A stretch of 64,000 nucleotides of DNA from contig NZ_JBGFSP010000003.1 of the NCBI RefSeq assembly GCF_041227145.1, positions 2,418,001-2,482,000 of the forward strand, read 5' to 3'. The position numbers and the translations under genes were made by a program. Positions within the stretch are counted from its first letter, which is position 1. Each line of letters starts with the position of its first letter. This DNA comes from Bacteroides sp. AN502(2024). Its GTDB lineage: Bacteria; Bacteroidota; Bacteroidia; Bacteroidales; Bacteroidaceae. Under the pieces are notes generated by a model that saw only the letters and a program-made list of their open reading frames with translations, was not told the origin of the DNA and made no database searches. Shown here in pieces: positions 23,207 to 62,427 of the stretch.

Positions 23207-23271
23207 CAAATAACCGAAGTTTTGTGAGAAATTCAGGCTAATATTTTGCATGAAAAAGATAAAATCCTGCC
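23207..23271 (-). promoter_or_regulatory. GH20 promoter with two-repeat operator
   Basis: Read on the minus strand: distal repeat GGCAGGATTTTATCT (23271-23257), 6 nt, proximal repeat TGCAAAATATTAGCC (23250-23236), exactly 21 nt, then -7 GTTATTTG (23214-23207). Same geometry as four other promoters in the window. Confidence 0.75.
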
Positions 23272-23335
23272 AAACATAGGTTTAGTACAGTATTGCGAAA
23301 ACAATTTAATATCTTTTTGCTTGGATTATGAGAAT

Positions 23336-23400
23336 GGTAGAATTTTAGCTTTTTATTGTAAAATAATGTTCTAATTCTTTATTTAAATTGCCTTAATTTG
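23336..23400 (+). promoter_or_regulatory. SusCD-operon promoter with two-repeat operator
   Basis: Distal repeat GGTAGAATTTTAGCT (23336-23350), 6 nt, weaker proximal repeat TGTAAAATAATGTTC (23357-23371), 21 nt, -7 TTAATTTG (23393-23400). The start codon follows at 23447. The weak proximal repeat is accepted mainly because its spacing matches the other sites. Confidence 0.7.
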
Positions 23401-23446
23401 CAAACACGGAAGATCATATTTATTAATCTTTTTAATTTTTTATTTT

Positions 23447-24856
23447 ATGAATAAACACCTAATTGCAGTGTTGATTTGCTGCTTATTCTTTATTGGTTGT
23501 AAGGATAATAAGGTTGATACTACTCAGTATGATCCATCTCAACCAATAGTGTTTACGGATTTCACTCCTAAAAGTGGAGGGATGCGAACCCGCTTGTATA
23601 TTGAAGGTAGTAATTTTGGCAGTGACCCTGCTAAAGTTCACATTACGATTGGCGGAGAAAAAGCCAAAACTATCGGTGTGGATGGAACAAATATTTATTG
23701 TATGGTTCCTCCCAAGGCTTTTGATGGCAAAATTAATGTTCGTGTAGACGGACCGGACGGGAATGTTGTTACAGACTATACATTCGAAAAGGAATTCGAA
23801 TATACTCCTGCAACAATTATAGGTACTATGTTGCGTAGGGTGGACGAAGATGGAAATTCTCCCTGGCAGGAAGGCTCGTTTGACGAAGGTGCCTCTGTTC
23901 CATCCAACGACTGTATGGTGTTCGACCCGAAGTATAAAGAGGGGGATGACAGGTTGCTTTTTTCTGCCAACTGGACGAATGGTCTTCATTTGGTAAACCT
24001 GACACAACGGACCGTGAAACGCCTCTTCCCACGTACAGGATATAATAAGATGTATTCTTTTACCTTTACAATAGAAGGAGATACATTGTTGTTTACCGAT
24101 GACCATGGTTATGACGGTACTACTCGGGCAAACATTTATTATGCTCTCCGTCGTGAAAATTTTCGACGGATTCGTCCCTATAATTATGGAAGGACATCTT
24201 ATAGTGTGATATGTATGAATGACGGAACTGTCTTTTATAGTGTTTGGTGGAATGGAAAAGTCTACAAAATGGTACGTAACGGAGGTATTCCTAATGTGGA
24301 CAGTAATGCAGAAGAACAATTCAGTTTAAGTGCGATATCGAATGTGGAAGGCTCACATTCGATATTAATAAAACACCCGTCCGATAAATTTATATATATG
24401 ATTTCCAACGATGTTGGTGCTGTTATCAGATCGGATTATAATAAAGAAACTAAAAAATTGGGTAGTCCTAGTATTGTTGCCGGAATGATTGAGGAGAAAG
24501 GTTGTCAGGAAGGGGTTCAAACCAGTGCCCGGTTCAATACTTTGTGGAACGGTGTGTTTGTTAAGAATAAAGATTATGGTGAAGGAGTGGGACCTGACAA
24601 GGACCAATACGATTTCTATGTATGTGATAAAGAAAATCATTGCATCTGGAAAATCGACCCGTTCGGGATAGCCACTATTATAGCCGGGCGGAGCAACAGA
24701 AATGCCGATGGTAAAGTCAATGGCTATGTAGATGGTGCTCCGTTGCACGAAGCGCGTTTTGATGGTCCCGCCGGTCTGGCTTACGACCCTATAGACGAAA
24801 TCTTCTACATTGGAGATATTAACAATAAAGCTATTCGTTATATGACAACGGAATAA
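23447..24856 (+). CDS. IPT/TIG-domain surface lipoprotein with NHL-like propeller
   Basis: 469 aa. Lipobox FFIGC (Cys18). IPT/TIG immunoglobulin-like domain at residues about 35-110 (FTPKSGGMRTRLYIEGSNFG). The rest is a beta-propeller of NHL-like blades ending FDGPAGLAYDPIDEIFYIGD and NNKAIRYM. Such proteins encoded beside SusC/SusD are usually surface glycan-binding proteins. First gene of the operon, 17 nt before SusC, behind the shared operator. Two similar proteins (42787-44559 and 44581-45852) occur in the other SusCD locus of this window. No enzymatic motif seen. Confidence 0.85.
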   Translation: MNKHLIAVLICCLFFIGCKDNKVDTTQYDPSQPIVFTDFTPKSGGMRTRLYIEGSNFGSDPAKVHITIGGEKAKTIGVDGTNIYCMVPPKAFDGKINVRVDGPDGNVVTDYTFEKEFEYTPATIIGTMLRRVDEDGNSPWQEGSFDEGASVPSNDCMVFDPKYKEGDDRLLFSANWTNGLHLVNLTQRTVKRLFPRTGYNKMYSFTFTIEGDTLLFTDDHGYDGTTRANIYYALRRENFRRIRPYNYGRTSYSVICMNDGTVFYSVWWNGKVYKMVRNGGIPNVDSNAEEQFSLSAISNVEGSHSILIKHPSDKFIYMISNDVGAVIRSDYNKETKKLGSPSIVAGMIEEKGCQEGVQTSARFNTLWNGVFVKNKDYGEGVGPDKDQYDFYVCDKENHCIWKIDPFGIATIIAGRSNRNADGKVNGYVDGAPLHEARFDGPAGLAYDPIDEIFYIGDINNKAIRYMTTE

Positions 24857-24873
24857 TACTATTTTAAGCACAA

Positions 24874-27800
24874 ATGAGTATGAGAAATATAATCTTATTA
24901 TTTTTATTGATAGTAGGTTGTGCTACTTCAGTCTACTCTCAGAACGAGCAAACTTCGTATGAAGTGACGGGTATTGTCACGGATGTAAATAAAGGGCCTT
25001 TGGTCGGTGTAAACGTAACAGCGAAGAACATTCCGGGATTTGGTACGGTAACGGACATAAACGGGCGTTATAGAATAAAAGTCCCTCACTATTCTTTTTT
25101 GATATTTTCTTATGTAGGCTTTGAAAAGCAGGAAGTTTTTGTGAAAGAAGAAAAAAATATCAATGTGATTATGCAAGAGTCGAAAGAAACCGTTTACGAT
25201 GATGTCGTTATCACAGGAACAGGTGTTCAGAAGAAAGTGACCATGACGGGTGCCGTTACTACGGTCGATGTGTCTCAACTGCGTACTCCTACTGCAAGTA
25301 TCACGAATGCCCTTGCTGGTAACGTGGCGGGGGTGATGGCGCGTCAGACTTCCGGACAACCGGGCGACAATATTTCTGAGTTCTGGATTCGTGGTATCTC
25401 CACTTTTGGTGCCGGAGGAGGTGCATTGGTGCTGGTGGATGGTTTTGAACGTAATATGAACGAAATCAATGTGGAAGACATTCAAGATTTCTCTGTGTTG
25501 AAAGATGCTTCAGCGACTGCCATTTACGGTTCACGAGGTGCAAATGGTGTAGTTCTGATTACTACTAAACGTGGTAAAGAAGGAAAACTTCGTGTCAATG
25601 CCAAATTGGAAAGCTCTTATAATATGCGTACCATGACTCCTGAATTTGTGGATGGACCCACATATGCACGTTTAACGAATGAAGCTTTGCTTGCCCGCAA
25701 CCAATCTCCAGCTTATACCGACAGCGATTTGTTGTTGTTTGAGAATGGTTTGGATCAAGACCTGTTCCCCAATGTGAATTGGATGGATATGATATTGAAA
25801 AAGGGGGCTCCCACTTATCGTGCCACTATCGACTTGACGGGTGGCGGTACCATAGCACGATACTTCATTTCTGCCAGTTATGTAAATGAAGGAGGTATGT
25901 ATGAGACCGATCGTGCAATGAAGGACTATAACACCAATGCCAACTATCATCGCTGGAATTACCGTATGAATATAGACATCGATTTGACAAAAACAACGTT
26001 GATAAAACTTGGTGTTGCAGGTTCCTTGGACAAACAGAATTTGCCGGGTGCCCAGTATCATGAAATCTGGAAGTCATTAATGGGATACAATCCGGTTGCT
26101 TCACCGGTGCAGTATAGTGACGGCAAATGGGCGGCAGTCGGTAATTCGGGAAAAAGAAATCCGTGGGTACTGACTACTCAGCAAGGGTATCAGGAAACAT
26201 GGAAAAACAAGATACAGACTACAGTGAATCTTGAACAGGATTTGAAGTTTATCACACCGGGATTGAAGTTTTACGGACGTTTCGGTTTCGATACCTATAC
26301 GGAGAATGTTGATAACCGTTACAAATGGCCGGAAAGTTGGTTGGCAGAACGTCAGCGCACTTCCGACGGAGAACTCCAGTTCAGAAGAATAGAACAGGAA
26401 AGACTGATGTCCGGAACGATGTATTCGACCGGAAAACGGTATGAGAATCTGGAAGCAGAACTGCACTACAATCGCACATTCGGCGACCACATGGTAGGAG
26501 CTGTTATGAAGTACTCGCAGGATAAGCTTACTAACACATCGCCTAACAATCATACCGCCACGTATGATAAGATTGTGCAGAGTATCCAAAAGCGTCACCA
26601 GGGAATTGCAGGACGCTTTACCTACGGATGGAAATATCGCTACTTTTTCGACTTTAATTTTGGTTACAACGGTTCTGAGAACTTCGCCACAGGTCATCAA
26701 TTCGGATTCTTCCCGGCCTATTCCGTTGCATGGAATATTGCAGAAGAACCCATCGTGAAGAAACACCTCAAATGGTTGAATATGTTTAAACTGCGTTACT
26801 CTTACGGTAAGGTGGGTAATGATAAGATTAGTAGTGATGATGTAGAAGATGAGGTGAGGAAGCGTTTCCCTTATATATCGAAATTCAGTGAAGATGATAA
26901 AAACTCTTATTTTTATGGTGATATAGGTGCAGGCGGTTATTATTATACCGGATTGACTTATTCGAAAGTGGCAGCAAGAAACATCACCTGGGAGGTGGCG
27001 AAGAAGCATGACCTTGGACTCGACTTCTCTATGTTTGACGATAAGCTGAGTGGTACGATTGACTATTTCCACGAGCAACGTGACGGTATTTATATGCAAC
27101 GTTGGTATATTCCCCGTATCATAGGTTTGGATCATATTGCAGACCAGCCGTATGCGAATGTGGGTGCTGTGTTGTCTGAAGGGTTTGACGGTAATATTGC
27201 TTATGACCAGAAATTGGGAGAGGTAGACTTTACCGTACGCGCCAACCTGACCTATAGCAAGAATAAAATCAAGAATTACGATGAAGAGAACAGCCGTTAT
27301 CCGTATAAAAAGAATTATGGGTTCCGTGTAGATCAGGCACGCGGTTACATAGCCGAAGGGTTGTTTAAGGACTATGAAGAAATTCGTAACAGAGCTTCAC
27401 AAGGTTCGAATGTCATGCCGGGAGATATCAAATACAAAGACGTCAATGGTGACGGAAAGATAACAACTGATGACCAAGTGCCTATCGGTGCGACTACTCG
27501 TCCTAATATGATTTATGGATTCGGTGTATCTGCACAATGGAAAGGGTTTGATGTGAACGTTCATTTCCAGGGAGCCGGCAAGTCTTCATTCTTTATCGAC
27601 GGATTTACCGTATATCCGTTTAAAGAAGGTTCTTGGGGTAATATTCTGACAGATGTAGTTGGAAACTACTGGTCATTGGGAGTCAACGAGGATCCGAATG
27701 CCAGATATCCGCGTTTGAGTTATGGCGGTAATGAAAACAACTATTGTCCTTCTACTTATTGGTTGCGAAACGGATCATATCTTCGTCTGAAAAACGTGGA

Positions 27801-27990
27801 ATTAGGTTATAATATTCCGAAACGTTTGGTGAACAAGATTCGATTGGATCGTGTGCGTTTGTATCTGATGGGGACAAATCTGTTGACTTTCTCCAGCTTT
27901 AAACTTTGGGATCCGGAATTGGGCAGTTCTAACGGGCAGCAATATCCGTTATCCAGAACAGTAACCGTCGGACTTACAATAGGACTCTAA
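24874..27990 (+). CDS. SusC-like TonB-dependent outer-membrane transporter
   Basis: 1038 aa. Signal peptide, then a CarboxypepD_reg-like domain (YEVTGIVTDVNKGPLVGVNV, residues about 27-105), a plug domain (ASITNALAGNVAGVM; SVLKDASATAIYGSRGANGV, about 120-235) and a large beta-barrel ending in an aromatic-rich C-terminus (VTVGLTIGL). No N-terminal STN domain, which fits control by an HTCS rather than an ECF sigma pair. It imports oligosaccharides across the outer membrane with the SusD lipoprotein encoded 22 nt downstream. Start at 24874 or 24880 cannot be separated. Confidence 0.96.
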   Translation: MSMRNIILLFLLIVGCATSVYSQNEQTSYEVTGIVTDVNKGPLVGVNVTAKNIPGFGTVTDINGRYRIKVPHYSFLIFSYVGFEKQEVFVKEEKNINVIMQESKETVYDDVVITGTGVQKKVTMTGAVTTVDVSQLRTPTASITNALAGNVAGVMARQTSGQPGDNISEFWIRGISTFGAGGGALVLVDGFERNMNEINVEDIQDFSVLKDASATAIYGSRGANGVVLITTKRGKEGKLRVNAKLESSYNMRTMTPEFVDGPTYARLTNEALLARNQSPAYTDSDLLLFENGLDQDLFPNVNWMDMILKKGAPTYRATIDLTGGGTIARYFISASYVNEGGMYETDRAMKDYNTNANYHRWNYRMNIDIDLTKTTLIKLGVAGSLDKQNLPGAQYHEIWKSLMGYNPVASPVQYSDGKWAAVGNSGKRNPWVLTTQQGYQETWKNKIQTTVNLEQDLKFITPGLKFYGRFGFDTYTENVDNRYKWPESWLAERQRTSDGELQFRRIEQERLMSGTMYSTGKRYENLEAELHYNRTFGDHMVGAVMKYSQDKLTNTSPNNHTATYDKIVQSIQKRHQGIAGRFTYGWKYRYFFDFNFGYNGSENFATGHQFGFFPAYSVAWNIAEEPIVKKHLKWLNMFKLRYSYGKVGNDKISSDDVEDEVRKRFPYISKFSEDDKNSYFYGDIGAGGYYYTGLTYSKVAARNITWEVAKKHDLGLDFSMFDDKLSGTIDYFHEQRDGIYMQRWYIPRIIGLDHIADQPYANVGAVLSEGFDGNIAYDQKLGEVDFTVRANLTYSKNKIKNYDEENSRYPYKKNYGFRVDQARGYIAEGLFKDYEEIRNRASQGSNVMPGDIKYKDVNGDGKITTDDQVPIGATTRPNMIYGFGVSAQWKGFDVNVHFQGAGKSSFFIDGFTVYPFKEGSWGNILTDVVGNYWSLGVNEDPNARYPRLSYGGNENNYCPSTYWLRNGSYLRLKNVELGYNIPKRLVNKIRLDRVRLYLMGTNLLTFSSFKLWDPELGSSNGQQYPLSRTVTVGLTIGL

Positions 27991-28012
27991 ATCAATCATT
28001 AAAATAAAAGAC

Positions 28013-30046
28013 ATGAAAATAAGTAAATATATTTTAGGGGGAGTAGTGATGCTCGGTTTGGGGCTTACTTCCTGTTCCGATTATCTGAATGTAGATCGCT
28101 TTTTCAGAGACCAACAAACTACGGAACGCATTTTCTCGGACAAAGACTATACACTTCGATGGCTGTCATTCTGCTATAGCCGCTTACATGGAGATAACCT
28201 GGATGTGGGACACAGTGAAGTATGTCCTTTTAATTTCTCGGACGACCATGTATTTAGTGAATATGGAGACAGGTTTTCGAAGTTCAAGCGTGGCGAATAT
28301 TTAAATTCCTTAGGTGGGCATAATGCCTGGACATTCTCGTATGAAGGGATTTATCAAGCTTCCATACTGTTGAATGAATTGCATGAGAATAATGACCTTA
28401 CTCCTGAAGAAGTGACGGACGTAAGAGGGCAAGCTCGTTTTCTACGTGCTTATTTCTACTGGATGCTGTTGAGAAAGTTCGGTCCTGTGCCTATCCTGCC
28501 ACCGGAAGGAGCCGATTATACCAAATCGTATGACGAACTTTCGTATCCGCGTAACACCTATGAGGAGTGTGTGGAGTTCATTACTTCGGAACTGGAAATT
28601 GCAGCTACCGAACTGTTCGAGAAAAGAGATAACATGAATATCGCCCGCCCGACCAAGGGAGCCGCTCTTGCTGTACGTGCTAAAGTTTTCCTTTACGCAG
28701 CCAGCCCGTTGGCAAATGGAAACACGGAAATGGCAGACTTTACCAATATGGACGGCAAGAAGTTGATTCCACAAGAATACAAAGAGGAAAAATGGGCGAT
28801 AGCTGCTGCAGCAGCCAAAGACATGATTGATTATGCGGAAGCGACCGGACTGTATAAATTGTATACTTTTGAAAAACGTTCGGTAAGTATGGATGAGGCT
28901 TATCCACCTACTATTGAACCGCCTTACCATAAAGAATACAGCGAACGTCCTTTCCCGGATGGCTGGGCAAATATAGATCCGTTTGAATCATACCGTTCTA
29001 TTTTTAATGGCGATGTATATGCCGCCGAAAATCCGGAACTGATTTTTTCCCGAATAGCTAATGGTAAAAATAATGGCCTAGGCTCAGACTTTTCAATGGT
29101 AAATTTGGTAAAGCACCAGTTACCTAAAACTCTAGGAGGATACAACTGCCACGGGGTGACCTTGAAACAGTGTGAAGCTTATGACATGGCGGACGGTAGG
29201 CCGTTTGATAAAAAATATTATGAAGAGTATTATGGCAAATATACGGATGACACGAATCACAAGTACGATCATTTAAGAAATGATGTATGGTTGGGATATG
29301 CCGACCGAGAACCTCGTTTCTATGCTTCGGTGGCTTTTAATGGAGCTGTATGGCACGCTTTGAGTGCGAGAGACGAAAACGGAGGAAAAGAACATCGAAA
29401 TAAGCAAGTCTGGTATTATCGCGGAGAAGATAATGGGCGTGTCAACGGAACCGACCAATGGTGCATTACCGGGTTGGGCGTTATGAAATATGTAAATCCG
29501 AATGATGCCGACAGATACGGTGGAGCTATTTATCAGAAAACGGAACCTGCACTTCGTTATGCGGACATATTATTGATGTATGCCGAGGCACTGAACAATA
29601 TTTCTGAAGGAACGCATTATGTCGTGTCTAAATGGGATGGAAGCGGAACTTACGACATCTATCGTGACAAGGAACAGATGCGCCGTGGGGTGAAACCGGT
29701 CCGTATGCGTGCCGGTATGCCCGATTATGAGGAGGATGTCTATGCGGATCCGAAGAAATTCTTTGAAAGAATCGTTCATGAACGTCAGATTGAATTCTTT
29801 GCGGAATCTCAGCGTTACTATGATCTGCGCCGTTGGAAAATAGTAGAGGAACACGAAGGTGAGCAAATCTATGGATGCAACACGCTGATGGACAAAGCAA
29901 ACAGAGATATGTTTTATGTGCCGGTCAGAGTAAGCGACTTACAGTCTTCTTTCTCTCGCAAACAGTACTTCTGGCCTGTGAGCTATGATGAACTGAAACG
30001 GAACAAGAATCTGACACAAGCTCCGGGATGGCAGTATTATGATTAG
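28013..30046 (+). CDS. SusD/RagB-like surface glycan-binding lipoprotein
   Basis: 677 aa, large for the family. Lipobox TSCSDYL near residue 21. N-terminal TPR-like helices (ARFLRAYFYWMLLRKFG) and the C-terminal SusD signature near FERIVHERQIEFFAESQRYYDLRRWK. Forms the lid over the SusC barrel and binds the glycan at the surface. It sits between SusC and the DUF4973 protein, overlapping the longest frame of the latter. Confidence 0.95.
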   Translation: MKISKYILGGVVMLGLGLTSCSDYLNVDRFFRDQQTTERIFSDKDYTLRWLSFCYSRLHGDNLDVGHSEVCPFNFSDDHVFSEYGDRFSKFKRGEYLNSLGGHNAWTFSYEGIYQASILLNELHENNDLTPEEVTDVRGQARFLRAYFYWMLLRKFGPVPILPPEGADYTKSYDELSYPRNTYEECVEFITSELEIAATELFEKRDNMNIARPTKGAALAVRAKVFLYAASPLANGNTEMADFTNMDGKKLIPQEYKEEKWAIAAAAAKDMIDYAEATGLYKLYTFEKRSVSMDEAYPPTIEPPYHKEYSERPFPDGWANIDPFESYRSIFNGDVYAAENPELIFSRIANGKNNGLGSDFSMVNLVKHQLPKTLGGYNCHGVTLKQCEAYDMADGRPFDKKYYEEYYGKYTDDTNHKYDHLRNDVWLGYADREPRFYASVAFNGAVWHALSARDENGGKEHRNKQVWYYRGEDNGRVNGTDQWCITGLGVMKYVNPNDADRYGGAIYQKTEPALRYADILLMYAEALNNISEGTHYVVSKWDGSGTYDIYRDKEQMRRGVKPVRMRAGMPDYEEDVYADPKKFFERIVHERQIEFFAESQRYYDLRRWKIVEEHEGEQIYGCNTLMDKANRDMFYVPVRVSDLQSSFSRKQYFWPVSYDELKRNKNLTQAPGWQYYD

Positions 30047-30071
30047 TGTTAATGTTGTAAAACTAAAGATT

Positions 30072-31079
30072 ATGAGAAAATTATATATTTCAGTACTAAT
30101 AGTAGGTGCTTGTGCAATGTTCGCAGCATGTAATGACGAGTGGAAAGACGAACTTTACGAGAAAATGATTTCTTTCAAGGCACCTGTGGGAGATAATGGC
30201 TTGAACGAGATTTATATACGTTATCAGCCGGATGGAAGTGGAATATACCGGTTACCGGTCATTGTCAGCGGTTCGCAGAAAAATGACCGGGATATCCAGG
30301 TGAAGATAAGAGTGGATGAGGATACGCTCCATATACTTAATAAGGAAAGATTCCCGGTCAATCGCGAGGACCTTTGGTATAAACCTCTTAAGCAACAATA
30401 TTATTCTTTTGAATCGGACATGTGCAATATTCCGGCGGGAAGGGATATCGAACTTTACCCTATCCACTTCAACCTTACCGGGTTGGAATTGGATGAAAAG
30501 TATGTACTCCCGTTGACTGTTGAAGAAGATCCTTCTTATAAGCAAAACACATATAAGGGACGTTATAAGGCACTTTTGGGAATCAACCTGTTCAATGATT
30601 ATTCCGGTACTTACAATTCAACGATGATGAATGTTTACATAAAGGGTACAACCGATAATCCTGCAAAAATTGACAAACGGGTAGCCCGTGTGTTTGACGA
30701 GAATACCATATTCTTCTATGCCGGGTCTATTTGGGCAGAAGATGAGAATCGTTCTCTTTATAAAGTGTTTGTTGAATTTGAAGAAGGTGAGGAGGATGCA
30801 CGAGGTACTCTTACAGGAAAGCTAAAAGTGTATGGCGATCCCGAAGCGGGCACTGACATTAAGCCAATAGGAGAGTGCAAGTATGAGAAGCGAGTGGTCC
30901 AGCATGAAACTCTCAAATATTTGGAACGCCATATCACTACATTGGAGTTGAGCTATACTTATAAGGATATCACTACAAATCCGGATTTCCCGATAACTTA
31001 TGAAGTGAAAGGCTCTATGACATTAGAACGGCAGATTAACCCGTTAATTCCGGATGAAGATCAGGCTAATCAATGGTAA
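30072..31079 (+). CDS. DUF1735/DUF4973 surface lipoprotein
   Basis: 335 aa from ATG 30072, chosen because it gives a lipoprotein signal (FAACNDEW, Cys20); an ATG at 30039 overlaps the SusD stop. N-terminal BT_3987-like/DUF1735 Ig domain (about 35-175) and a DUF4973-type domain (about 180-320) starting YSGTYNSTMMNVY. Proteins of this layout are common third components of SusCD loci, with suspected glycan-binding roles. Followed by the GH97 gene 22 nt later. Confidence 0.82.
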   Translation: MRKLYISVLIVGACAMFAACNDEWKDELYEKMISFKAPVGDNGLNEIYIRYQPDGSGIYRLPVIVSGSQKNDRDIQVKIRVDEDTLHILNKERFPVNREDLWYKPLKQQYYSFESDMCNIPAGRDIELYPIHFNLTGLELDEKYVLPLTVEEDPSYKQNTYKGRYKALLGINLFNDYSGTYNSTMMNVYIKGTTDNPAKIDKRVARVFDENTIFFYAGSIWAEDENRSLYKVFVEFEEGEEDARGTLTGKLKVYGDPEAGTDIKPIGECKYEKRVVQHETLKYLERHITTLELSYTYKDITTNPDFPITYEVKGSMTLERQINPLIPDEDQANQW

Positions 31080-31101
31080 TCTAAGAAAATCCGTTTTTGA
31101 T

Positions 31102-37875: not shown

Positions 37876-37887
37876 ATAAATAAAATT

Positions 37888-44559: not shown

Positions 44560-44580
44560 ATTCTTTTAGATTGTTTACGT

Positions 44581-47668: not shown

Positions 47669-47679
47669 GATTGTTCATT

Positions 47680-52315: not shown

Positions 52316-52463
52316 TGCATTATTTTTTGCTGTTTTATATAATAGTTGCTTGAAAAAACAATAACCCTAGTGGAATAATGATTTTTTTTCAAAAAAGATT
52401 AAGAAGAAAAAGTAATGAATATACATACTTCTGCAGGGGAGAGTGGGGAGGTATGAGCAGGGG

Positions 52464-53249: not shown

Positions 53250-55469
53250 CTATATATTGCTTCTGCTATCTTCTTCCAGATAAAGCACGCGGCTGGCATA
53301 TTCGTTTTGTTTCGAAGGTTCCACTCTGTGGGTAGCGGGAATTTCCAGTCCGTTGTCATTCAGATATGCACCGCTGAAACTTTTACCTTCAAATTTTAAA
53401 GGTTCGGTGTCAATGCGGTTCAGCTCATGCACCTTATAATATTTGTCCGGAGCAAGTCCTGCCATCTTCACCCGTGGCAAGTGCTGGTTGCAGAAATGTT
53501 CTGTTTTCCACCAGTAGAATACGGCTTTGTCTTTTTCCGGCGATACATACATCAGCGAAGCTGCGCCCTGTTTGTCATACGGAGAAAGTAAACGGTAAAT
53601 ATCTCCGAACTGTACGACGGGACGTATCGTCTTGTATTCGGCAATGGCGTTTCTGCACAATGCCTTTTCCTCTTCCGTCATATTCTTGGGCTGTATTTCC
53701 ATACCTAAGCGTCCGCTCATGGCTACATCAATACGGAACTTCAGCGGGACGGAACGCGATGTCTGATGGTTGGGGCTTGCACTGATATGCGCCCCCATGC
53801 CGATGGCGGGGAAGAAATAGGAAGTGCCCCACTGGATGTAGATACGCTGCAGTGCATCCGTATTGTCGCTTGTCCAGAATTCGTCGAAGTAGGGCAGTAC
53901 GCCGTAGTTGACACGTCCGCCGCCGCTGGCGCAAGCTTGTATCGTCAGTTGCGGATGGTTGGTGCGGATGCGTCGGCACACATTCTCAAAGCCCCGGTGG
54001 TATTCGATGTTCAGGTGGCTTTGGTTGTCTTTGGTCAGGTATTGCGAACCTTGGGTGATGATGGACATGTTGGCGTCCCACTTGATATAGTCAATGTCGG
54101 GATAGGAGTTCATCAGTCCGTCCACTGTCTGTACGATAAAATCCTGCACTTGCGGGTTGGAAAGGTCGAGCACGACTTGTGTGCCGCCGCGGGCGCATAC
54201 CACTTCCCGCTCGGGTGCCTTGATAATCCATTCGGGGTGCTTTTCGTACAGTTCGCTTTGGGTATTAGCCATTTCCGGTTCCAGCCAGATGCCGAACCGT
54301 ATGCCGTGTTTCCGGGCGTTGTCAAGTAATGACTGCAGTCCACCGGGGAGTTTGGTCTTGTCTACGGTCCAGTCACCCAAGGCATAAGAGTCGTTCTTGC
54401 GCGGATATTTGTCGCCGAACCAACCGTCGTCCATTACGAACAATTCGCCTCCCATGGCAGCGATGTCACCCATCATCTGGTCCATCCCCTGTTCGTTGAT
54501 GTCGAAATAGACGCCTTCCCAACTGTTCAGCAGAATTTTGCGGTAAGTGTTCCCGTTGGCGAGTTTATGCAGGCGTGCCCATTGATAGAATTTCCGGCTG
54601 CATCCGCTCATCCCTTCATCGCTGTAGGTCAGTGCCAATGCGGGGGTGCGGAACACTTCTTCTTTTTTCAGGTTGTACCAGGAGTTTTCTTCGTTGATGC
54701 CGGCGAGGAAATGGTGCCAGTCGTCTTCTTGCGTGTCAATACGCAGTTTGTAGTTACCGCTGTAGCAAAGTGCTGCACCGATGACACGTCCCGTGTTCTC
54801 CTGCGGTTTGCCGTCGAGTGAGAACATCACTTCTGCGTGTGCCGATTGGGAGTTGCGTACCCCGTCCGTGTTTTTGATGACTTTCATGCCCTGTTGCAAC
54901 GCTTCCTGACAGAGTTGTCCTTCGTTTGCCCAGGCACCGGAAAGATGTGCCAGCCAGACATTGCCACGGCGGACAGGCAGGTAGGCGGAAGCGAACTGCT
55001 GAAGTTGGACAGGCTTCTTCTCTTCGTGACGGATTTCAGTCCATGTCTCGATGACATCCGCATCCTGCCATGCTTTGTAGCAGATGTTGACGAAGAAAGG
55101 ATACACTTTATCTTTCAGTTCTATTACCGTCAAAGTGGCGTTTTCTTCTGTAAGGCGTGTCTCTTTTACGCCTATGACTGCCATTTGAAGTGTCAGGTTA
55201 CCGTCGGCATGGCGGACGGACAATGCCGTTTCGCATGGATACCCCATTCCGTAGACGGGATAAGCATTTCTCCCGCGTGTCGTTTCGCAAATGCTTCGGA
55301 TATCCGCATCGGAAGTGCGTAAACCGTAATACAGTAGTTCCGGTGTACCACCGTTCGGTACCGAGAGGAGCAACTGTGTATGGGGAGTGGATATGGTGAC
55401 ATTCTGTGCCGGCAGAAGTGTAGACAACAGCCAGGCGGAAATGAAGAAAAACAGATTTCTTTTGTTCAT
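53250..55469 (-). CDS. GH36 alpha-galactosidase
   Basis: 739 aa from ATG 55469, chosen for the signal peptide MNKRNLFFFISAWLLSTLLP. N-terminal GH36 beta-sandwich (about 25-290), TIM barrel with nucleophile Asp in YIKWDANMS (about 463) and acid/base Asp in WTSDNTDALQR (about 532), C-terminal beta-domain. Cleaves terminal alpha-galactose with retention. Periplasmic. It is the third predicted alpha-galactosidase family in the window. Co-transcribed with the GH2 gene upstream (gap under 40 nt) from the operator-bearing promoter. Confidence 0.94.
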   Translation of the reverse strand: MNKRNLFFFISAWLLSTLLPAQNVTISTPHTQLLLSVPNGGTPELLYYGLRTSDADIRSICETTRGRNAYPVYGMGYPCETALSVRHADGNLTLQMAVIGVKETRLTEENATLTVIELKDKVYPFFVNICYKAWQDADVIETWTEIRHEEKKPVQLQQFASAYLPVRRGNVWLAHLSGAWANEGQLCQEALQQGMKVIKNTDGVRNSQSAHAEVMFSLDGKPQENTGRVIGAALCYSGNYKLRIDTQEDDWHHFLAGINEENSWYNLKKEEVFRTPALALTYSDEGMSGCSRKFYQWARLHKLANGNTYRKILLNSWEGVYFDINEQGMDQMMGDIAAMGGELFVMDDGWFGDKYPRKNDSYALGDWTVDKTKLPGGLQSLLDNARKHGIRFGIWLEPEMANTQSELYEKHPEWIIKAPEREVVCARGGTQVVLDLSNPQVQDFIVQTVDGLMNSYPDIDYIKWDANMSIITQGSQYLTKDNQSHLNIEYHRGFENVCRRIRTNHPQLTIQACASGGGRVNYGVLPYFDEFWTSDNTDALQRIYIQWGTSYFFPAIGMGAHISASPNHQTSRSVPLKFRIDVAMSGRLGMEIQPKNMTEEEKALCRNAIAEYKTIRPVVQFGDIYRLLSPYDKQGAASLMYVSPEKDKAVFYWWKTEHFCNQHLPRVKMAGLAPDKYYKVHELNRIDTEPLKFEGKSFSGAYLNDNGLEIPATHRVEPSKQNEYASRVLYLEEDSRSNI

Positions 55470-55507
55470 AATTATCATAATAGTAAATTACATGTTTTTT
55501 ATGTTTA

Positions 55508-57373
55508 CTAATGGGAACTTTTTGTAGGAAGCGTATTATCCAGGCAATGGCAAACTTCACTGTTAACTTTCTGTAATGCATCCGCATTCATTTTCACTAC
55601 TTTGCGGTCGTAGGTCATCAGTCCGTTGATTTCCGATTCCACATCGGTAGTTTGGGTATATACGGCACCGCATAGTCCCAATGTAGACAGTTCTTTGAGG
55701 CGGTTGGCATATTTCAGATACTGTTCCGTAGCCTCTTCTTTACCTTTCAGGTCACCGTATCCCCAATTACGGTCTTCGTTCCACAGATGTCCTTTCAGTG
55801 CCATGCCGATTCCACCGAACTCACCGATTACATTCACACGGTCGGCATCGAAGAGGAACATGACAGGTTCCGGATAACTGTGCAGGTCGAGAATGTCCCC
55901 GCAAGGGAAATAATTGCCGCCACTGGCGGGATTCACCGGGCGTGTCGGGTCATATTTCTTGGTCCACTCGGCTATTTCTACAGGTTTGAATTGTCCCATC
56001 GCTTCGTTGAACGGTGTCCATACGCCGATGCAGGGGTAAGAATAGAGACAGTCCATCACCTCTTTCCATTCTTTCCGGTAGATAGCTTCCGATTCCGGAG
56101 TGCGTACCATCTCCGGACCATAGTAGAATTGCTTGTATTGCCAGTCTTGATTCTTGTCGCCGTTGGGCATATCCTGCCATACCATCATTCCCAGACGGTC
56201 ACAATGCGCATACCAACGTGCCGGTTCCACTTTCAGGTGCTTGCGTATCATGTTGAATCCGAGTTCTTTGGTCTTCTCGATGTCGTAGCACAAGGCTTCG
56301 TCCGTCGGTGCGGTATACAGCCCGTCAGGCCACCATCCTTGGTCGAGCGGTCCGAAGTGGAAGATGTCTTTATTGTTCAGTTGCAGGCGCATATAGCCTT
56401 TTTTATCTCTTCGTGTAGAGAACTTCCGCATGGCAGTGTAACTTTTCACTTTGTCCTGCAATTTGCCGTTGGCATAGAATGAGATTTCCAGGTCATAGAG
56501 CGAAGGAGAGTCGGGAGACCATAGCTTGCAATCTGTCGGCATCGGTATTTCTACGGAAGTATGGTTCAATGCACTGCCGGAGGCGATAATTTTGTTATTG
56601 TCAATGACTTTCACTTCTATCCGGTCGTTGGCTTTTGGATTGTTCACTGTTGTTTCCACCGTCAGTTTGCCACTGTCTATGTCGGGAGTCGTCCGGATGT
56701 TTTCTATGGCACGTTCGGGGACAGGTTCCAGCCATACGGTTTGCCAGATGCCGCTCACCGGTGTATACCATATATGTCCAGGGTTGCTTACCTGCTTGCC
56801 GCGTGCCTGTTTGCCTTTGTCCGTCGGGTCCCATACCCGCACCACTATTTCATTATCACCTTTTATCAGTGCTTGTGTGATGTCAAATGCAAAAGAAGTG
56901 AATCCGCCGCAGTGTTCACCGAGCTTGGTGCCGTTCACCCATACGGTGGTTTTCCAGTCTACTGCTCCGAAATTCAGCAACACCCGTTGTCCTTTCCAGC
57001 GGGAAGGCACGGAGAAAGTGCGCCGATACCATAACTCGTTATTTTCTCCCAATTCTTTTCCTACACCGGAAAGTGCGGATTCTACGGCAAAAGGTACCAG
57101 AATCTCACCGTCATACGTTGTCGGCATTGCTTTACCCGATGGAAGGATAGCATACTGCCAGAGTCCGTTCAGATTCATCCATTCCGCACGTTCCATCAAA
57201 GGACGCGGGTATTCGGGCAATACGTTATTTACGTCTACTTGTGCTGCCCATTCTGTAACAATTCTGTTACCGGCAGGTTTCCACTGGGCATAAGAATCGG
57301 TGCAACACACTAACATGATTAACACCTCATAGATGTACGAATACTTCGCCATCCCTTTCATTACCATTTCCAT
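55508..57373 (-). CDS. GH2-family glycoside hydrolase
   Basis: 621 aa from ATG 57373; further ATGs follow at 57367, 57361 and 57352, and a signal peptide fits any of them. GH2 N-terminal sugar-binding domain (about 50-215; WYRRTFSVP, VLLNFGAVDWKTTVWVNG), Ig-like domain (about 220-320), and a TIM barrel. The acid/base Glu is in FNEAMGQF (about 455) and the nucleophile Glu in VIGEFGG (about 517). It lacks the C-terminal domains of LacZ. Likely beta-galactosidase-like, but beta-glucuronidase, beta-mannosidase or arabinosidase specificity is possible for this short GH2 group. Confidence 0.88.
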   Translation of the reverse strand: MEMVMKGMAKYSYIYEVLIMLVCCTDSYAQWKPAGNRIVTEWAAQVDVNNVLPEYPRPLMERAEWMNLNGLWQYAILPSGKAMPTTYDGEILVPFAVESALSGVGKELGENNELWYRRTFSVPSRWKGQRVLLNFGAVDWKTTVWVNGTKLGEHCGGFTSFAFDITQALIKGDNEIVVRVWDPTDKGKQARGKQVSNPGHIWYTPVSGIWQTVWLEPVPERAIENIRTTPDIDSGKLTVETTVNNPKANDRIEVKVIDNNKIIASGSALNHTSVEIPMPTDCKLWSPDSPSLYDLEISFYANGKLQDKVKSYTAMRKFSTRRDKKGYMRLQLNNKDIFHFGPLDQGWWPDGLYTAPTDEALCYDIEKTKELGFNMIRKHLKVEPARWYAHCDRLGMMVWQDMPNGDKNQDWQYKQFYYGPEMVRTPESEAIYRKEWKEVMDCLYSYPCIGVWTPFNEAMGQFKPVEIAEWTKKYDPTRPVNPASGGNYFPCGDILDLHSYPEPVMFLFDADRVNVIGEFGGIGMALKGHLWNEDRNWGYGDLKGKEEATEQYLKYANRLKELSTLGLCGAVYTQTTDVESEINGLMTYDRKVVKMNADALQKVNSEVCHCLDNTLPTKSSH

Positions 57374-57421
57374 AAGGACCAATATTTTATGTATTTCTTA
57401 CATTGTTTTTTGTTCACTTTG

Positions 57422-57486
57422 CAAAAGTGTTAAATCTCTGGATGAATAAAGGCTAAAATTCTACCTATAAAGAATAAAATTCTATC
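57422..57486 (-). promoter_or_regulatory. GH2-GH36 promoter with two-repeat operator
   Basis: On the minus strand: distal GATAGAATTTTATTC (57486-57472), 6 nt, proximal GGTAGAATTTTAGCC (57465-57451), 21 nt, -7 CACTTTTG (57429-57422). Placed between divergent GH2 and GH43-like genes. The GH43-like gene has a possible TTCCTTTG -7 at 57515-57522, but the spacing rule is not met in that direction. Confidence 0.78.
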
Positions 57487-57553: not shown

Positions 57554-58654
57554 ATGATACGTCTTATACATATTGTGGGGATATTGGCTTGTTTGTTCAG
57601 TAACTTTTCCTGCCAGTATAAAGTAGCAACATCTCACGCATCGGAAACCATAGATTCCGCTTCCTATTATACGAATCCGCTTTTGTATAATAGTGGTTCG
57701 ACTTTTGGCGCTCTGTTTCATGACGGTATGTATTATTATATTTGCGGGGTGGATGATAAAATCTGTTTGTGGGCATTGGAAGACATTACTGAAATATCAC
57801 ATGTACCTGCCAAAACGATATGGCCAGTGAACAACAATCAATCTTATTCTCATATCTGGGATCCGCAAATACATTATATCAATGGAAAGTGGTATGTGTA
57901 TTTCAATATGGACGATGGCGATTTGGACAACCGCCAGTTGTATGTACTGGAAAATGCTTCACCCAACCCGTTGGAGGGGGAATTTGTGTTGAAAGGCAAG
58001 ATTTCCACCGATCCTCACAATAATCTTGCTATTTACGGACATCCGTTTGTACATAAAGGCAAACTGTATCTGCTTTGGAGCGGCTGGAAAAACAAGCGTA
58101 TCTTTGAGGAAATGCAATGCTTGTATATTGCCGAAATGTCCGATCCGTGGACGTTGGCATCCGAACGTGTCCTGATATCCGAACCTAAGTATGAATGGGA
58201 ATGTCAATGGGTGGGGACCGACGGGAATAAAACCGCTTATCCTGTCTACGTCAATGAGATGCCTTTTCTTTTTCATTCCCGCAACAAGGACAAACTTCTT
58301 ATTTACTATTCCGCCAGTGCCAACTGGACTCCTTATCACTGTATCGGATTACTAGTTGCCAGTGCCGACAGCGACCTGCTTTCTCCTACTTCATGGACTA
58401 AATTGTCCGAACCGGTTTTCAGACAATCACCAGAAAACAACGTATACGCCCCCGTCAATATATGTTTCATACCTTCACCGGATTATAAAGAGTGGTATAT
58501 GCTTTATCTAGTACACAACTCGCCTCATAATACACTTGTGGAGAATAATTGCTCTTTACGGATGCAACCTATCGGCTGGGATGAGGCAGGATTGCCTTTG
58601 TTGGGCAAACCGGCAAAAGAAGGAGAAGTGTTTCGTAAACCTTCCGGGCTTTAG
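57554..58654 (+). CDS. GH43-like five-bladed propeller, probably catalytically dead
   Basis: 366 aa. Lipobox SNFSCQY (Cys20). The GH43 fold is clear from IWDPQIHYINGKWYVYF, KGKLYLLWSGW and the C-terminal VYAPVNICFIPSP. Two of the three GH43 catalytic acids are absent. The general-base position (normally GADP) reads GSTFG at residues 47-51, and the pKa-modulator position (normally IDGT) reads IYGH at about 159-162. Only the acid Glu in VNEMPF (about 234) remains. It may be a binding protein or have altered chemistry. Divergent from GH2; ends at a shared terminator. Confidence 0.85.
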   Translation: MIRLIHIVGILACLFSNFSCQYKVATSHASETIDSASYYTNPLLYNSGSTFGALFHDGMYYYICGVDDKICLWALEDITEISHVPAKTIWPVNNNQSYSHIWDPQIHYINGKWYVYFNMDDGDLDNRQLYVLENASPNPLEGEFVLKGKISTDPHNNLAIYGHPFVHKGKLYLLWSGWKNKRIFEEMQCLYIAEMSDPWTLASERVLISEPKYEWECQWVGTDGNKTAYPVYVNEMPFLFHSRNKDKLLIYYSASANWTPYHCIGLLVASADSDLLSPTSWTKLSEPVFRQSPENNVYAPVNICFIPSPDYKEWYMLYLVHNSPHNTLVENNCSLRMQPIGWDEAGLPLLGKPAKEGEVFRKPSGL

Positions 58655-58735: not shown

Positions 58736-61036
58736 TTACTTGTATTTTTTCACTCGCTCATCGTCTATCACTCCCTTCCAGTTTAGTCCATACGTATAAT
58801 CGTACACATGACCGTCGGCATCGTGATAACAACGCATATCATGTGGAGTATCTTCCGCCTGTTCCTCTACCGTGCGCATGTCTGCCGGCATTTGGAAGGG
58901 CAGCAAGGCGGAAGGCTCCGCTTTTCCTGACATCAGGTCGAGAACCGTCTGACGCTGTACGTCGAACAACAGGAACAATGCATCGGCATAAGGCTCTATC
59001 TCGCTCAACACGGGAGGATTCAGTACATTGATGGCCACAATCACCGGCTTTTCTCCCATGCTCTTCTTTGTTTGGATGACCAGGTCCATGTCACCCTTGT
59101 TGACAGTCTTCACGCTTTTGCCTCGATAGCTGCGGTTGGTGAACTCCTCGTACGGGTCGCCACCGGATAGGCTCTGTGCCCGGGCATACGTGGCGGTATA
59201 ATCGCTATATTGCAGGCTGATAGGGCGATAACCCGTATCTTTTCCTGTTCGTGCTGCTTCTTCGTCGAAACCGTAACCACTGTTGGGAGACTCGATGAAT
59301 ACGATAGCCGCATCAGCTTCTTGCGGAGTGGAAACCAACTCGAAGTATCTTTCCACTAATTCCTTGCTCAGCGGGGTGATGTGCTGTTCTTCGATACGTC
59401 CACCCCAGAAGTCAATGTAGGAGGGGACATAACGCTCGGGGATATACACTTTCTTCTTTCCTTCCAACGGCAGTACGCCTGCATGGTTCTTTAACATGAC
59501 AACACTTTTCAATTGGGCATCGTATCCTTCCTGCATGAATTCGGGACAGCCTACCACTTCGCTTGTGTATGTCGGATCGAGATAAGGATTCTCGAACAAA
59601 CCGGTGCGGAAGATATTGGTCAATAAACGGCGGGCGGAAGTCCGCATACGTTTCTGCATCCACTCTTCACCCTGTTTTTCCACTCCTATACGGTAAGCAT
59701 CAAGCACAGGTCCCCGGTCGTTATTTCCGCCGAATTGGTCGACTCCTGCCATCAGAACTTTGTAATGACGTTCCGCCACGCTTTTGGTTTCCATGCCCCA
59801 CGGTTTTCCTTTGCAGGCGTATACTCCCACTTCGTCATGCGTGATTCCCCAGTCGGAGCAAATCACTCCGTTGTAGTTCTGTTGTTCGCGCAGCATATTT
59901 TGGATAAACTTCCGGCTGAAACCACTACCTACACCGTCCGGTTCGAAACCTACGCAAGCGGAATAGTCGGGCATCAAGGCAGCAGATACCTTGGTTTTGC
60001 CTTCCAGCTTGAAAGCGCCTTCCGTGAAAGGCTGCGTATGCAATTCGAAATTGCCATTGGGAAAAACGGCGTATTTTCCATATCCCTGATGACCGTCTCG
60101 CCCGCCTTCGTTGCATGCTCCAGTCCCCGGCCAGTGTTTCACCATCGTGTTCACACTGTTCCAGCCCCATCCGTCACAGATTTCCGCATCGCCTTCCGAT
60201 GTCTGGAAACCGTCGCAATAGGCACGTGCCATGTCGGTAGCAAGTTTGGTTCCTTCTCCCATTGTATAACAGAAGCGCATCCACCGCGGGTCGGTTCCTA
60301 TGTCCACCATCGGGAAGAGGGAAGTGGTGAAACCTAATGCTCTGTATTCTATGGAGCCTATTTCCGCAAAGCGTTTCATGATTTCGGGTGAGAAAGTGGC
60401 GCACATACCTAGACTGCCCGGCCACATGGAGATTTTGCCACCTCCGCCGGCGTTGAATTCCGCATCCGCCCGCGATGAGTGGCGGGGGTCAGAAGAATTG
60501 TTGCATGGAATACCGAATCTCAGACTTTCCACATAACTTTGTGCCGCATTGTTCCAACGGGCAGCCGTTTCCGGGCTTTCCACAGAGGTGATAAGCACGT
60601 GGCGTACTCCGTCTTTCTCGAGAAACGTCTTTTGTTCATCGGTCAGCTCCCAGGCAGGAACACCGCTTTCGGTATGTGTTTTGCCGTTGTATATGTTTCT
60701 GTTCACGGGGATGGTCTGATGGCTACTGTAGAGCATAAGCCCTGCGATGTCTTCCATGCTGAGCTGGGCAGTCAAGTCCGCCACACGTGCATCTACCGGT
60801 TGCCGCCAGTCTTCATATACGTCCAATCTACCGTTGCGGTTCAAGTCTTTGAACGCATATCCATCCTGTCGGATAATGGTGATTCCTGACGTTGGGCTGT
60901 ATCCTAATGTGGCACCGTCTTTTTGGGTTATCAAATGATATCCGTCTGCTACGGATTCCGTCCATCGTTGTCCGCTGCAACTGCATAGTACGCAGCCGGA
61001 TAATAAGAGCATCGAATATAAACTTTTTCTTATCAT
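58736..61036 (-). CDS. GH3-family glycoside hydrolase, lipoprotein
   Basis: 766 aa. Lipobox VLCSCSGQ (about residue 20). N-terminal TIM barrel with nucleophile Asp in GVICSDWGITHDE (about 394) and the usual KHWPGTG sugar-binding motif; C-terminal alpha/beta-sandwich (about 500-720) and a terminal tail. Family activities include beta-glucosidase and beta-xylosidase, usually exo-acting. The gene follows the GH99-like gene by 72 nt without its own operator, so it is probably transcribed from the promoter at 62363-62427. Confidence 0.92.
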   Translation of the reverse strand: MIRKSLYSMLLLSGCVLCSCSGQRWTESVADGYHLITQKDGATLGYSPTSGITIIRQDGYAFKDLNRNGRLDVYEDWRQPVDARVADLTAQLSMEDIAGLMLYSSHQTIPVNRNIYNGKTHTESGVPAWELTDEQKTFLEKDGVRHVLITSVESPETAARWNNAAQSYVESLRFGIPCNNSSDPRHSSRADAEFNAGGGGKISMWPGSLGMCATFSPEIMKRFAEIGSIEYRALGFTTSLFPMVDIGTDPRWMRFCYTMGEGTKLATDMARAYCDGFQTSEGDAEICDGWGWNSVNTMVKHWPGTGACNEGGRDGHQGYGKYAVFPNGNFELHTQPFTEGAFKLEGKTKVSAALMPDYSACVGFEPDGVGSGFSRKFIQNMLREQQNYNGVICSDWGITHDEVGVYACKGKPWGMETKSVAERHYKVLMAGVDQFGGNNDRGPVLDAYRIGVEKQGEEWMQKRMRTSARRLLTNIFRTGLFENPYLDPTYTSEVVGCPEFMQEGYDAQLKSVVMLKNHAGVLPLEGKKKVYIPERYVPSYIDFWGGRIEEQHITPLSKELVERYFELVSTPQEADAAIVFIESPNSGYGFDEEAARTGKDTGYRPISLQYSDYTATYARAQSLSGGDPYEEFTNRSYRGKSVKTVNKGDMDLVIQTKKSMGEKPVIVAINVLNPPVLSEIEPYADALFLLFDVQRQTVLDLMSGKAEPSALLPFQMPADMRTVEEQAEDTPHDMRCYHDADGHVYDYTYGLNWKGVIDDERVKKYK

Positions 61037-61108
61037 GGTTTTTATTTCAATGTAAGTAGTATTTTTTCTAATTTTTTCTCTGTAATCATTTTCGTTCCCG
61101 TACTTATT

Positions 61109-62332
61109 CTATTTCTTGTTTCCAAAATTCTCATACTCGCCGTTCATCACCCGTTTTACGGCATTCAGGTAACCGAATCCGTTTTTCATATCGGGCAGGA
61201 GATAGCTGCCCTCCACCCATTCGTTCCAGGAGTTGATTGTAATCAGTTTGGGGCGTTCGGGACGTTGATCTACGTACTCTTTCGTTTTTTGCAGGAAAGC
61301 GGCGAAACTTTCGGGCGAGTCATTGTAATGCACGATTTCGTTGGCTTTTTTGTTCGGGAACCGAGGTGAATCGTCCCAGCCGATAGATACATTCGGGAAG
61401 AAAGGAACCTCGAGCGAATCCAATGCTTGCGTCCATTGTTCTCTGCGTTGCATAGCTTTTGTTCCCCATGATACATAGTCTTCCTCGAAAGGCCATCCCC
61501 AGTTGTATTTTGTTACGCTATTGACGCCTACCGTGGCCACCATTTCCATAAATTCGGGGAAGGGGAAGCCATCGCCGATGAGTTGGAGATGTAAATCCGG
61601 GAATCCGGCTTTTTTTACTTCTTCTCTAAAGTAGTCCATTGCCTTTTTTACCCCTTTGGCATCGCCGAAGTTCTCGCGTAGCTCGTAGTAACCGAAGATA
61701 GAGAATACCGGACAACCGTCTATCTTGAAATAGTTCGGTTGGTGGAAATATTGGCGTATTACCCGTTCTACGATGATTTTGAAGTTATCCCAGTCTACCG
61801 TCCCGTTCCATAAACGCGATTTATCATCTTTGTATCGGTGTACATTCCAATAGTTGTGTGCTACGTGGTGGTTAGCCCACATCAGGTAGAATTTCATTTT
61901 TTCGTTGTTTTTGGCTTTCAGGAATCCGTTGTTGACGGTGCTTTCCAAAAAAGGCTGCCCATCATACCAGTACCAGTCGAAGATAAACATATTGATGCCG
62001 TGGGCGGTTGCCACATCAATCCATTTTTCCATCACTTGTGTGTCATCATCCATTTCGTATCCCCACAAAGGTACTTTTGGCTGATAGTGCCCTTCGAAAC
62101 GGGGAGTGCCTTTTTTGATGACTTCCCATTCGCCGATACCTTCTCCCCATAAAGTGTCTTGTGCCATCGGGTCGTTGTGGCATGACGGCCATATATAGGC
62201 TGCCACATAATAGTCCTCTTGTTCTTCCGGCTGTCCGTCAACTTTTTGAGTAGACGGGGCACATGAGCAGATTGTCGTCATGGCTGCCGTTATAAAGAAA
62301 CTTCTCCATACATTTTTTGTGATTGTCTTCAT
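61109..62332 (-). CDS. GH99/WbsX-like lipoprotein
   Basis: 407 aa. Lipobox TICSCAPS (about residue 24). Motifs of the GH99-like/WbsX family: AAYIWPSCHND near the start, GINMFIFDWYWYDG, WANHHVAHNYWN and NSWNEWVEGSYLLPD (about 369), with conserved acidic residues expected for catalysis. True GH99 enzymes are endo-alpha-mannanases; WbsX-like members in glycan loci are poorly characterised. It has its own operator promoter and precedes GH3. Predicted surface or periplasmic endo-hydrolase, specificity unknown. Confidence 0.86.
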   Translation of the reverse strand: MKTITKNVWRSFFITAAMTTICSCAPSTQKVDGQPEEQEDYYVAAYIWPSCHNDPMAQDTLWGEGIGEWEVIKKGTPRFEGHYQPKVPLWGYEMDDDTQVMEKWIDVATAHGINMFIFDWYWYDGQPFLESTVNNGFLKAKNNEKMKFYLMWANHHVAHNYWNVHRYKDDKSRLWNGTVDWDNFKIIVERVIRQYFHQPNYFKIDGCPVFSIFGYYELRENFGDAKGVKKAMDYFREEVKKAGFPDLHLQLIGDGFPFPEFMEMVATVGVNSVTKYNWGWPFEEDYVSWGTKAMQRREQWTQALDSLEVPFFPNVSIGWDDSPRFPNKKANEIVHYNDSPESFAAFLQKTKEYVDQRPERPKLITINSWNEWVEGSYLLPDMKNGFGYLNAVKRVMNGEYENFGNKK

Positions 62333-62362
62333 AGGAAATTTGTAATATTAATAAATAATGCG

Positions 62363-62427
62363 CAAATGTATGAATTGGCAAGAACTATAAAGGCTAAAAT
62401 TTTGCCTTAATAGGCTAAAATTCTGTC
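62363..62427 (-). promoter_or_regulatory. GH99-like/GH3 promoter with two-repeat operator
   Basis: On the minus strand: distal GACAGAATTTTAGCC (62427-62413), 6 nt, proximal GGCAAAATTTTAGCC (62406-62392), 21 nt, -7 TACATTTG (62370-62363). Best-conserved repeat pair of the five and a consensus -7. Confidence 0.82.

Follow-up and report, generated by a model that had tools for sequence, protein, structure and literature searches.

A direct-repeat operator in fixed register with the -7 element at five promoters of a Bacteroides polysaccharide utilization locus: a predicted target of the local hybrid two-component system

Which protein, if any, reads a sequence element that recurs with the same internal spacing, and at the same distance from the -7 element, at five promoters of one locus? 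The question is raised by a 64-kb stretch of DNA from Bacteroides sp. AN502(2024) (assembly GCF_041227145.1, contig NZ_JBGFSP010000003.1, positions 2,418,001 to 2,482,000), referred to here as the window, which has a GC content of 44% and in which an rRNA operon is followed by a polysaccharide utilization locus of about 48 kb. We are fairly confident in regarding the five sites as the predicted operator of a single activator of the AraC type, in all likelihood the hybrid two-component system (HTCS) encoded in the same locus (16529-20492). This assignment is based on the ten half-sites and their 21-bp spacing, the fixed distance of 21 nt from the -7 element, the restriction of the sites to the locus, their conservation in a relative and the recurrence of the register near related HTCSs.

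The pairs of 15-bp direct repeats that the initial annotation described are read directly from the sequence at all five promoters. The two copies start 21 bp apart, and exactly 21 nt lie between the end of the proximal copy and an 8-nt element ending in TTTG; measured to TTTG itself, the proximal copy starts 40 nt upstream. Mismatches to the consensus GGYARAATTTTAKCC are given below for the distal and then the proximal half-site, and a site starts at its higher coordinate on the minus strand and at its lower coordinate on the plus strand. At the GH20 promoter (minus strand; two and two mismatches) the distal half-site GGCAGGATTTTATCT occupies 23257-23271, the proximal half-site TGCAAAATATTAGCC 23236-23250 and the -7-type element GTTATTTG 23207-23214. 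The TIG/SusCD promoter (plus strand; one and five mismatches) has its distal half-site GGTAGAATTTTAGCT at 23336-23350, a weak proximal half-site TGTAAAATAATGTTC at 23357-23371 and its -7-type element TTAATTTG at 23393-23400. These two sites stand back to back in the divergent region 23168-23446. Upstream of the Gfo/Idh genes (plus strand; three and zero mismatches) we find GAGAGAATATTATCC at 36659-36673, GGCAGAATTTTATCC at 36680-36694 and the -7 element TACATTTG at 36716-36723. The GH2-GH36 promoter (minus strand; two and zero mismatches) carries GATAGAATTTTATTC at 57472-57486, GGTAGAATTTTAGCC at 57451-57465 and the -7-type element CACTTTTG at 57422-57429. The GH99-like/GH3 promoter (minus strand; one and zero mismatches) carries GACAGAATTTTAGCC at 62413-62427, GGCAAAATTTTAGCC at 62392-62406 and again the -7 element TACATTTG, at 62363-62370.

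Vegetative promoters of Bacteroides combine TAnnTTTG at -7 with TTTG near -33, as described in the available text of PMC7366714. The distance of 21 nt to a TAnnTTTG-type element, as first annotated, is exact at every promoter; the element itself has to be worded more loosely, the full TAnnTTTG being present in only two of the five, TTTG in all five and indeed TTTGC in all five. From the first base of the proximal repeat as far as the -7 element, none of the five promoters contains TTTG, as read from the sequence.

Could five such sites be met by chance? Matrices were built from four sites at a time, using the half-sites only and excluding TTTG, and both strands of the window were scanned with each. 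The site left out scored above every non-site position in five of five cases (z 5.7-7.7). A matrix made from the four sites of a relative, genome G063, has the five sites of the window as its five best matches there; with TTTG added the fifth window site scores 29.7 and the next position 12.9. In the whole 4.8-Mb genome the spaced dyad is found at seven places with three or fewer mismatches, four of them in the window (0, 0, 1 and 2 mismatches) and three elsewhere, all at three, compared with five places for the reversed control; the SusC site, with more than three mismatches, lies outside the seven. The initial annotation had held that random occurrence throughout the genome, with no preference of spacing, would speak against a shared operator. 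Such randomness did not appear with the spaced pattern, the operator sites being confined to this locus; it does apply to the single half-site, which at three or fewer mismatches is neither rarer nor commoner genome-wide than its reversed control (384+423 versus 443+465). The lone half-site was rejected as a signal for want of any excess over that control.

The relative was found in a search of 158 genomes of the genus, that of the window included, with four candidates scored per genome. Relatives of the HTCS at E 1e-100 or better are present in 143 of them, and among the matches listed one other genome, G063, has an HTCS more than 90% identical (93%). Its locus (L125-L128) contains GH20, HTCS, GH2, GH36, GH43, GH3 and GH99-like genes and a sigma/FecR pair at 89-96% protein identity, together with a GH97 that is 80% identical and a different, non-orthologous SusC (35%). 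The comparison of orthologous promoters recommended in the initial annotation could thus be made with one relative: four promoters (GH20, GH2, GH99-like and GH97-SusC), three of them orthologous to those of the window, all have the 21/21 spacing and TTTG. The GH97-SusC site is imperfect (two and three mismatches) and in register; it precedes the GH97 gene, which is followed by the non-orthologous SusC, and the operator is thus present where the transporter differs. The GH2 promoter of G063 (L126 11543-11599) has a third copy of the repeat, with four mismatches, exactly 21 bp further upstream, which is absent from the GH2 promoter of the window; the comparison indicates that one 21-bp unit has been gained or lost between the two genomes. 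The Gfo/Idh-Gfo/Idh-DUF1080 genes were not found in the 70-kb region of G063 that was searched.

Elsewhere in the genus the consensus itself does not stand out. The pattern including the register, at three or fewer mismatches, occurs in eight of the 158 genomes: at four places in the genome of the window, at two perfect places in G063 and, in the other six, at seven places with two or three mismatches, against ten for the reversed pattern. At zero or one mismatch the full pattern is present in none of the 158 besides the window's genome and G063. Allowing the dyad two mismatches in 61 relatives gave a match in 18; outside the genome of the window there were 24 places, all at two mismatches, versus 23 reversed, and these were taken as chance. 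The consensus-dyad scan took 67 loci, namely 33 SusC loci, 30 short HTCS loci and L129-L132. The 33 loci that hold relatives of this SusC in genomes other than that of the window gave no match, and the nine regions upstream of the TIG gene (SusC 74-83% identical) that were aligned with that of the window are without the operator. The short HTCS loci reach 1.5 kb beyond the matched part of the HTCS, and the silence of the scan there says little. In L130 it missed a site near a paralog, described next, which has too many mismatches.

A core dyad under relaxed criteria, with TTTG required at the register, was sought in 2.33 Mb of loci, a total that counts overlaps and consists for the most part of HTCS neighbourhoods. 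In the orthologous locus of G063 the scan picked up three of the four sites, the GH97 site falling below threshold, and outside that locus it gave one place only. That place, in the overlapping loci L130 and L154, is the promoter of two genes adjoining a G063 HTCS paralog that is 50% identical. Counterparts with the 21/21 layout occur in the window's own genome (L133, near a 51% identical paralog) and in G021 (L213, near a 52% identical relative), such that a related half-site at the same spacing is seen near the closest HTCS relatives (50-52% identical) in three genomes. The counterpart half-sites end in TTTTTTCC, ATTTTTCC or, in G063, TTTTGTCC. The presumed recognition helices of these paralogs are nearly alike (SRSNFxRKxKA, SSSYFAKCFK).

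A matrix of the nine sites of the window and G063 was tried first, with a weak result, and the two paralog sites were then added, with a strong one. The resulting 36-column model gave the nine sites a weight of 0.5 and the two paralog sites a weight of 1.5, did not include TTTG, and was applied to 22 stretches from 12 genomes, being part of the clade of HTCSs 49-53% identical, with training loci left out; 95 non-clade HTCS stretches served as control. Among the best three matches of each clade stretch TTTG is in the exact register in 13 of 66, the 63 other offsets having a mean of 0.38 and a maximum of 2; the control has 2 of 285 in register (other offsets mean 1.94, maximum 6). With the best six matches the values are 15 of 132 (0.79, maximum 6) versus 3 of 570 (3.95, maximum 11), and with the best ten 18 of 220 (1.33, maximum 7) versus 8 of 950 (7.02, maximum 16). 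The 15 clade matches in register come from seven genomes, and two of them are apparently one site in two genomes (L253, L256). A motif-free map of clade promoters (129 anchors, training loci included) peaks at a lag of 21 with the proximal start 40-43 nt before TTTG (best cell 42, z up to 3.6); for non-clade promoters (811 anchors) a weaker ridge at lags of 21-22 lies for the most part at 40-49 nt and in part at 29-32 nt (z up to 2.7). A broader group of these HTCSs thus appears to share the strict placement. Two loci of clade relatives, L262 (10302/10349) and L265 (3070/3117), have divergent back-to-back sites a few tens of bases apart that resemble the arrangement at 23168-23446.

HTCS promoters at large were represented by 100 stretches centred on HTCS genes, 20 from each of five genomes with 22 to 46 family matches per genome, which gave 546 upstream regions. 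Direct repeats peak there at lags of 21 bp (28 regions), 22 bp (45) and 44 bp (25), over a background, taken from the remaining lags between 12 and 42 with 20 and 23 omitted, that has a mean of 4.4 and a maximum of 10; a repeat between divergent genes may count for both strands, at all lags equally. The peak at 21-22 bp agrees with the average of 21 bp reported for HTCS direct repeats in the accessible text of PMC3878776. That at 44 bp, in the upstream regions of L133-L232, suggests that triple repeats are common at HTCS operators with 22-bp spacing. Any TTTG relative to the repeat midpoint was too noisy over all HTCS stretches to yield one register.

If the five sites form an operator, the local HTCS is the leading candidate to bind it, as the initial annotation proposed. 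It is the only AraC-type regulator among the 30 open reading frames (ORFs) of the window scanned with Pfam. Its gene, present in the operator's own locus, encodes Reg_prop, Y_Y_Y, HisKA, HATPase, receiver and AraC-type HTH domains, split over two frames of the minus strand. The ORF at 19707-20492 holds the N-terminal part (Reg_prop); that at 16529-19720, which overlaps it in a different frame, is the C-terminal part as sequenced, with the remainder of the propeller, Y_Y_Y, HisKA, HATPase, receiver and HTH, and is the candidate DNA-binding protein. The frame changes near 19707-19720, and in this assembly no single ORF joins sensor, kinase, receiver and HTH. In G063 both parts are in one frame, open over 1335 aa, and a 1317-aa entry in the protein collection is 93% identical to the C-terminal part. 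The phospho-acceptor His, the receiver Asp and the SHIP tetrapeptide are legible in the C-terminal part. Apart from the break, the two parts show good conservation (95% and 93% identical to G063), as would suit a recent event or an assembly error. The proposal is strengthened in that the sites are local, are kept with the HTCS in the relative and share their geometry with paralogous loci, and has to be corrected in that 16529-20492, as sequenced, comprises two ORFs, not one gene. The assignment of the sites to the local HTCS is, on these comparisons, well supported and not proven.

Several observations weigh against this assignment. The proximal half-site of the SusC promoter is poor (five of 15 positions mismatched), and on plain pairwise identity the SusC site (18-22 of 30 to the other four) is not separable from chance, the maxima in 40 random AT-rich 64-kb sequences being 20-24. 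Its proximal half had been located through the spacing; we accept the site, if not the strength of that half-site, because of its leave-one-out score, exact register and position and the imperfect in-register GH97-SusC site of the relative. No site was found in the window scans at GH27 (14419-16053), GH43 (57554-58654) or the sigma/FecR/SusCD cluster (40372-53012). Changes between the window and G063 at the three orthologous promoters are mixed: half-sites have changed less than spacers at the GH99-like promoter (1/30 versus 8/27) and the GH20 promoter (7/30 versus 12/27), and more at the GH2 promoter (6/30 versus 2/27). The nine-site matrix, drawn from the window and G063 only, gave a much weaker result in the clade, with 6 of 150 matches in register (other offsets mean 1.0, maximum 5), against 2 of 570 in the non-clade stretches (other offsets mean 3.87). 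At HTCS promoters at large the distance from the repeat midpoint to the full TAnnTTTG varies (26-35 and 49-67 nt), so that the exact 21-nt rule may not extend to all HTCSs. Finally, the broken frame may mean that the HTCS protein is absent or altered in this strain, or that the assembly is wrong.

The frame break also gives room to another reader. The operator (GGCARAATTTTAKCC) might be real and yet be read here by a different protein, such as the 51%-identical HTCS paralog, the local HTCS being broken. This paralog is intact (C3:1529273-1532473), its recognition helices are nearly alike and it has a related operator at identical spacing. In its own operator, however, the half-site has a different 5' part; the sites of the present operator cluster only at the local locus, and in G063 the operator is retained alongside a local HTCS that is intact. 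We consider such a reader unlikely.

For an activator that binds directly beside the polymerase there is a familiar precedent. AraC at I1-I2 of araBAD, like XylR-type members of the AraC family at their sites, binds head-to-tail at sites 21 bp apart, the proximal one beside the -35 region. The sites of the window have the same class-II layout as those of AraC. A proximal site in fixed register by the -33/-35 region is found at five of five promoters in the window and four of four in the relative, with enrichment across the clade. The differences from the AraC and XylR type are the Bacteroides TAnnTTTG -7 element and the fusion of the AraC-type domain to a membrane sensor kinase. In our model the periplasmic propeller would bind the target glycan, upon which the HTCS would phosphorylate its own receiver domain. 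Two AraC-type DNA-binding domains would then be arranged head to tail on the same face of the DNA, separated by two helical turns. Taking -7 as the centre of the -7 element would put the proximal half-site at about -46 to -32 and the distal one at about -67 to -53. The proximal domain would take the place of the missing -33 element and contact the vegetative sigma factor and the RNA polymerase at -7; an activator replacing a poor -33 would fit the lack of TTTG from the proximal-repeat start to the -7 element at all five promoters. One signal would in this way set on together the surface transporter, the GH20, GH97, GH2, GH36, GH99-like and GH3 hydrolases and the Gfo/Idh-DUF1080 set.

The same position could in principle serve repression, the HTCS binding the sites and shutting the promoters. 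An HTCS that represses its locus, BT2391, is described in the accessible part of PMC11253607, and a bound proximal site would overlap RNA polymerase at -33. We nevertheless think repression quite improbable, since the -33 region is downstream of the distal repeat, TTTG is missing from the proximal repeat and the spacer in five of five promoters, and SHIP is preserved in the receiver; it belongs to the S/CHIP-DK inhibition motif described for phosphorylation-dependent HTCSs, of which the SHIP portion alone was read. That the five regions merely go back to a single promoter segment that was duplicated, and owe their likeness to descent without holding a binding site, is barely credible and was already disfavoured: the 21-bp unit gained or lost in the GH2 promoter and the closely similar SusCD genes found elsewhere under other promoters would suit it, but the five promoters have no evident likeness beyond the half-sites and the -7 element, and paralogous loci show the same register with different half-site sequences.

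What the predicted activator would control can be read from the genes downstream, the domain and gene assignments being based on the Pfam scan of the 30 ORFs. The locus contains GH27, HTCS, GH20, TIG-SusC-SusD-DUF4973-GH97 and two fimbrillin-like genes, and further Gfo/Idh-Gfo/Idh-DUF1080, a second SusCD cluster, GH36, GH2, GH43, GH3 and GH99-like (WbsX) genes. The putative targets, from the ORF list and Pfam, are GH20 (20663-23179, minus strand; here also by comparison with a relative), TIG-SusC-SusD-DUF4973/BT_3044-like-GH97 (23447-33060, plus), Gfo/Idh-Gfo/Idh-3-keto-disaccharide hydrolase (DUF1080; 36748-40279, plus), GH2-GH36 (53250-57382, minus) and GH99-like (WbsX)-GH3 (58736-62332, minus). 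Translation of GH20 probably starts at ATG 23179 and not at the listed ATG 23251; the latter borders on the operator, ahead of the -7 element, and the relative aligns from residue 25. The GH20 and HTCS genes are on one strand, 170 bp apart, and the GH20 operator may therefore drive the HTCS gene as well. The Gfo/Idh-Gfo/Idh-DUF1080 genes have the operator in common with classical hydrolases. The second SusCD cluster (40372-53012, minus), inside the locus and without the operator, includes its own ECF sigma/FecR anti-sigma pair as well as genes for a phosphodiester glycosidase and a histidine phosphatase; the G063 region retains the sigma/FecR pair (89-90%) but not the SusC of this cluster (only 25-28% matches).

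Direct-repeat HTCS operators are already known, and the putative five-promoter regulon described here adds another case. Motifs for HTCSs so far comprise, as far as the accessible texts go, predictions (PMC3878776), ChIP-seq data on two HTCSs (PMC3404733) and assays of binding to two promoters (PMC11253607). The available text of PMC3878776 gives predicted operators for 16 HTCSs of B. thetaiotaomicron, with direct repeats averaging 21 bp and a proposed dimer two helical turns apart. In these, as in the window, direct repeats precede several operons of one polysaccharide locus and form a local regulon; locus and regulator differ, and the comparison concerns layout. The operators of SusR-like regulators treated in the same text are a different case, there being no SusR-like gene among the 30 ORFs scanned. 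The available text of PMC3878776 states no fixed distance to the -7 element, and the terms 'transcription start' and 'activator' are absent from its main text. Nor did we find a fixed register between HTCS operator and -7 element stated in the literature searched, subscription papers and supplements lying outside the search.

Among the regulators of glycan loci in gut Bacteroides, HTCSs are a major class. If operator and -7 element keep a strict register, this would offer both a mechanism, in which the activator stands in for -33, and a simple rule by which to search for target promoters. We give roughly even chances to the general rule that the repeats of Bacteroides HTCSs are 21-22 bp apart with the proximal copy locked to one TAnnTTTG register, replacing the -33 contact. 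If it is true, the targets of an HTCS would be predictable from a single promoter sequence even without knowledge of the half-site, and pairs of sites in divergent orientation, as at 23168-23446, would be standard. In the present locus, a regulon of five operons would switch classical glycoside hydrolases together with a Gfo/Idh-DUF1080 (3-keto-glycoside) set.

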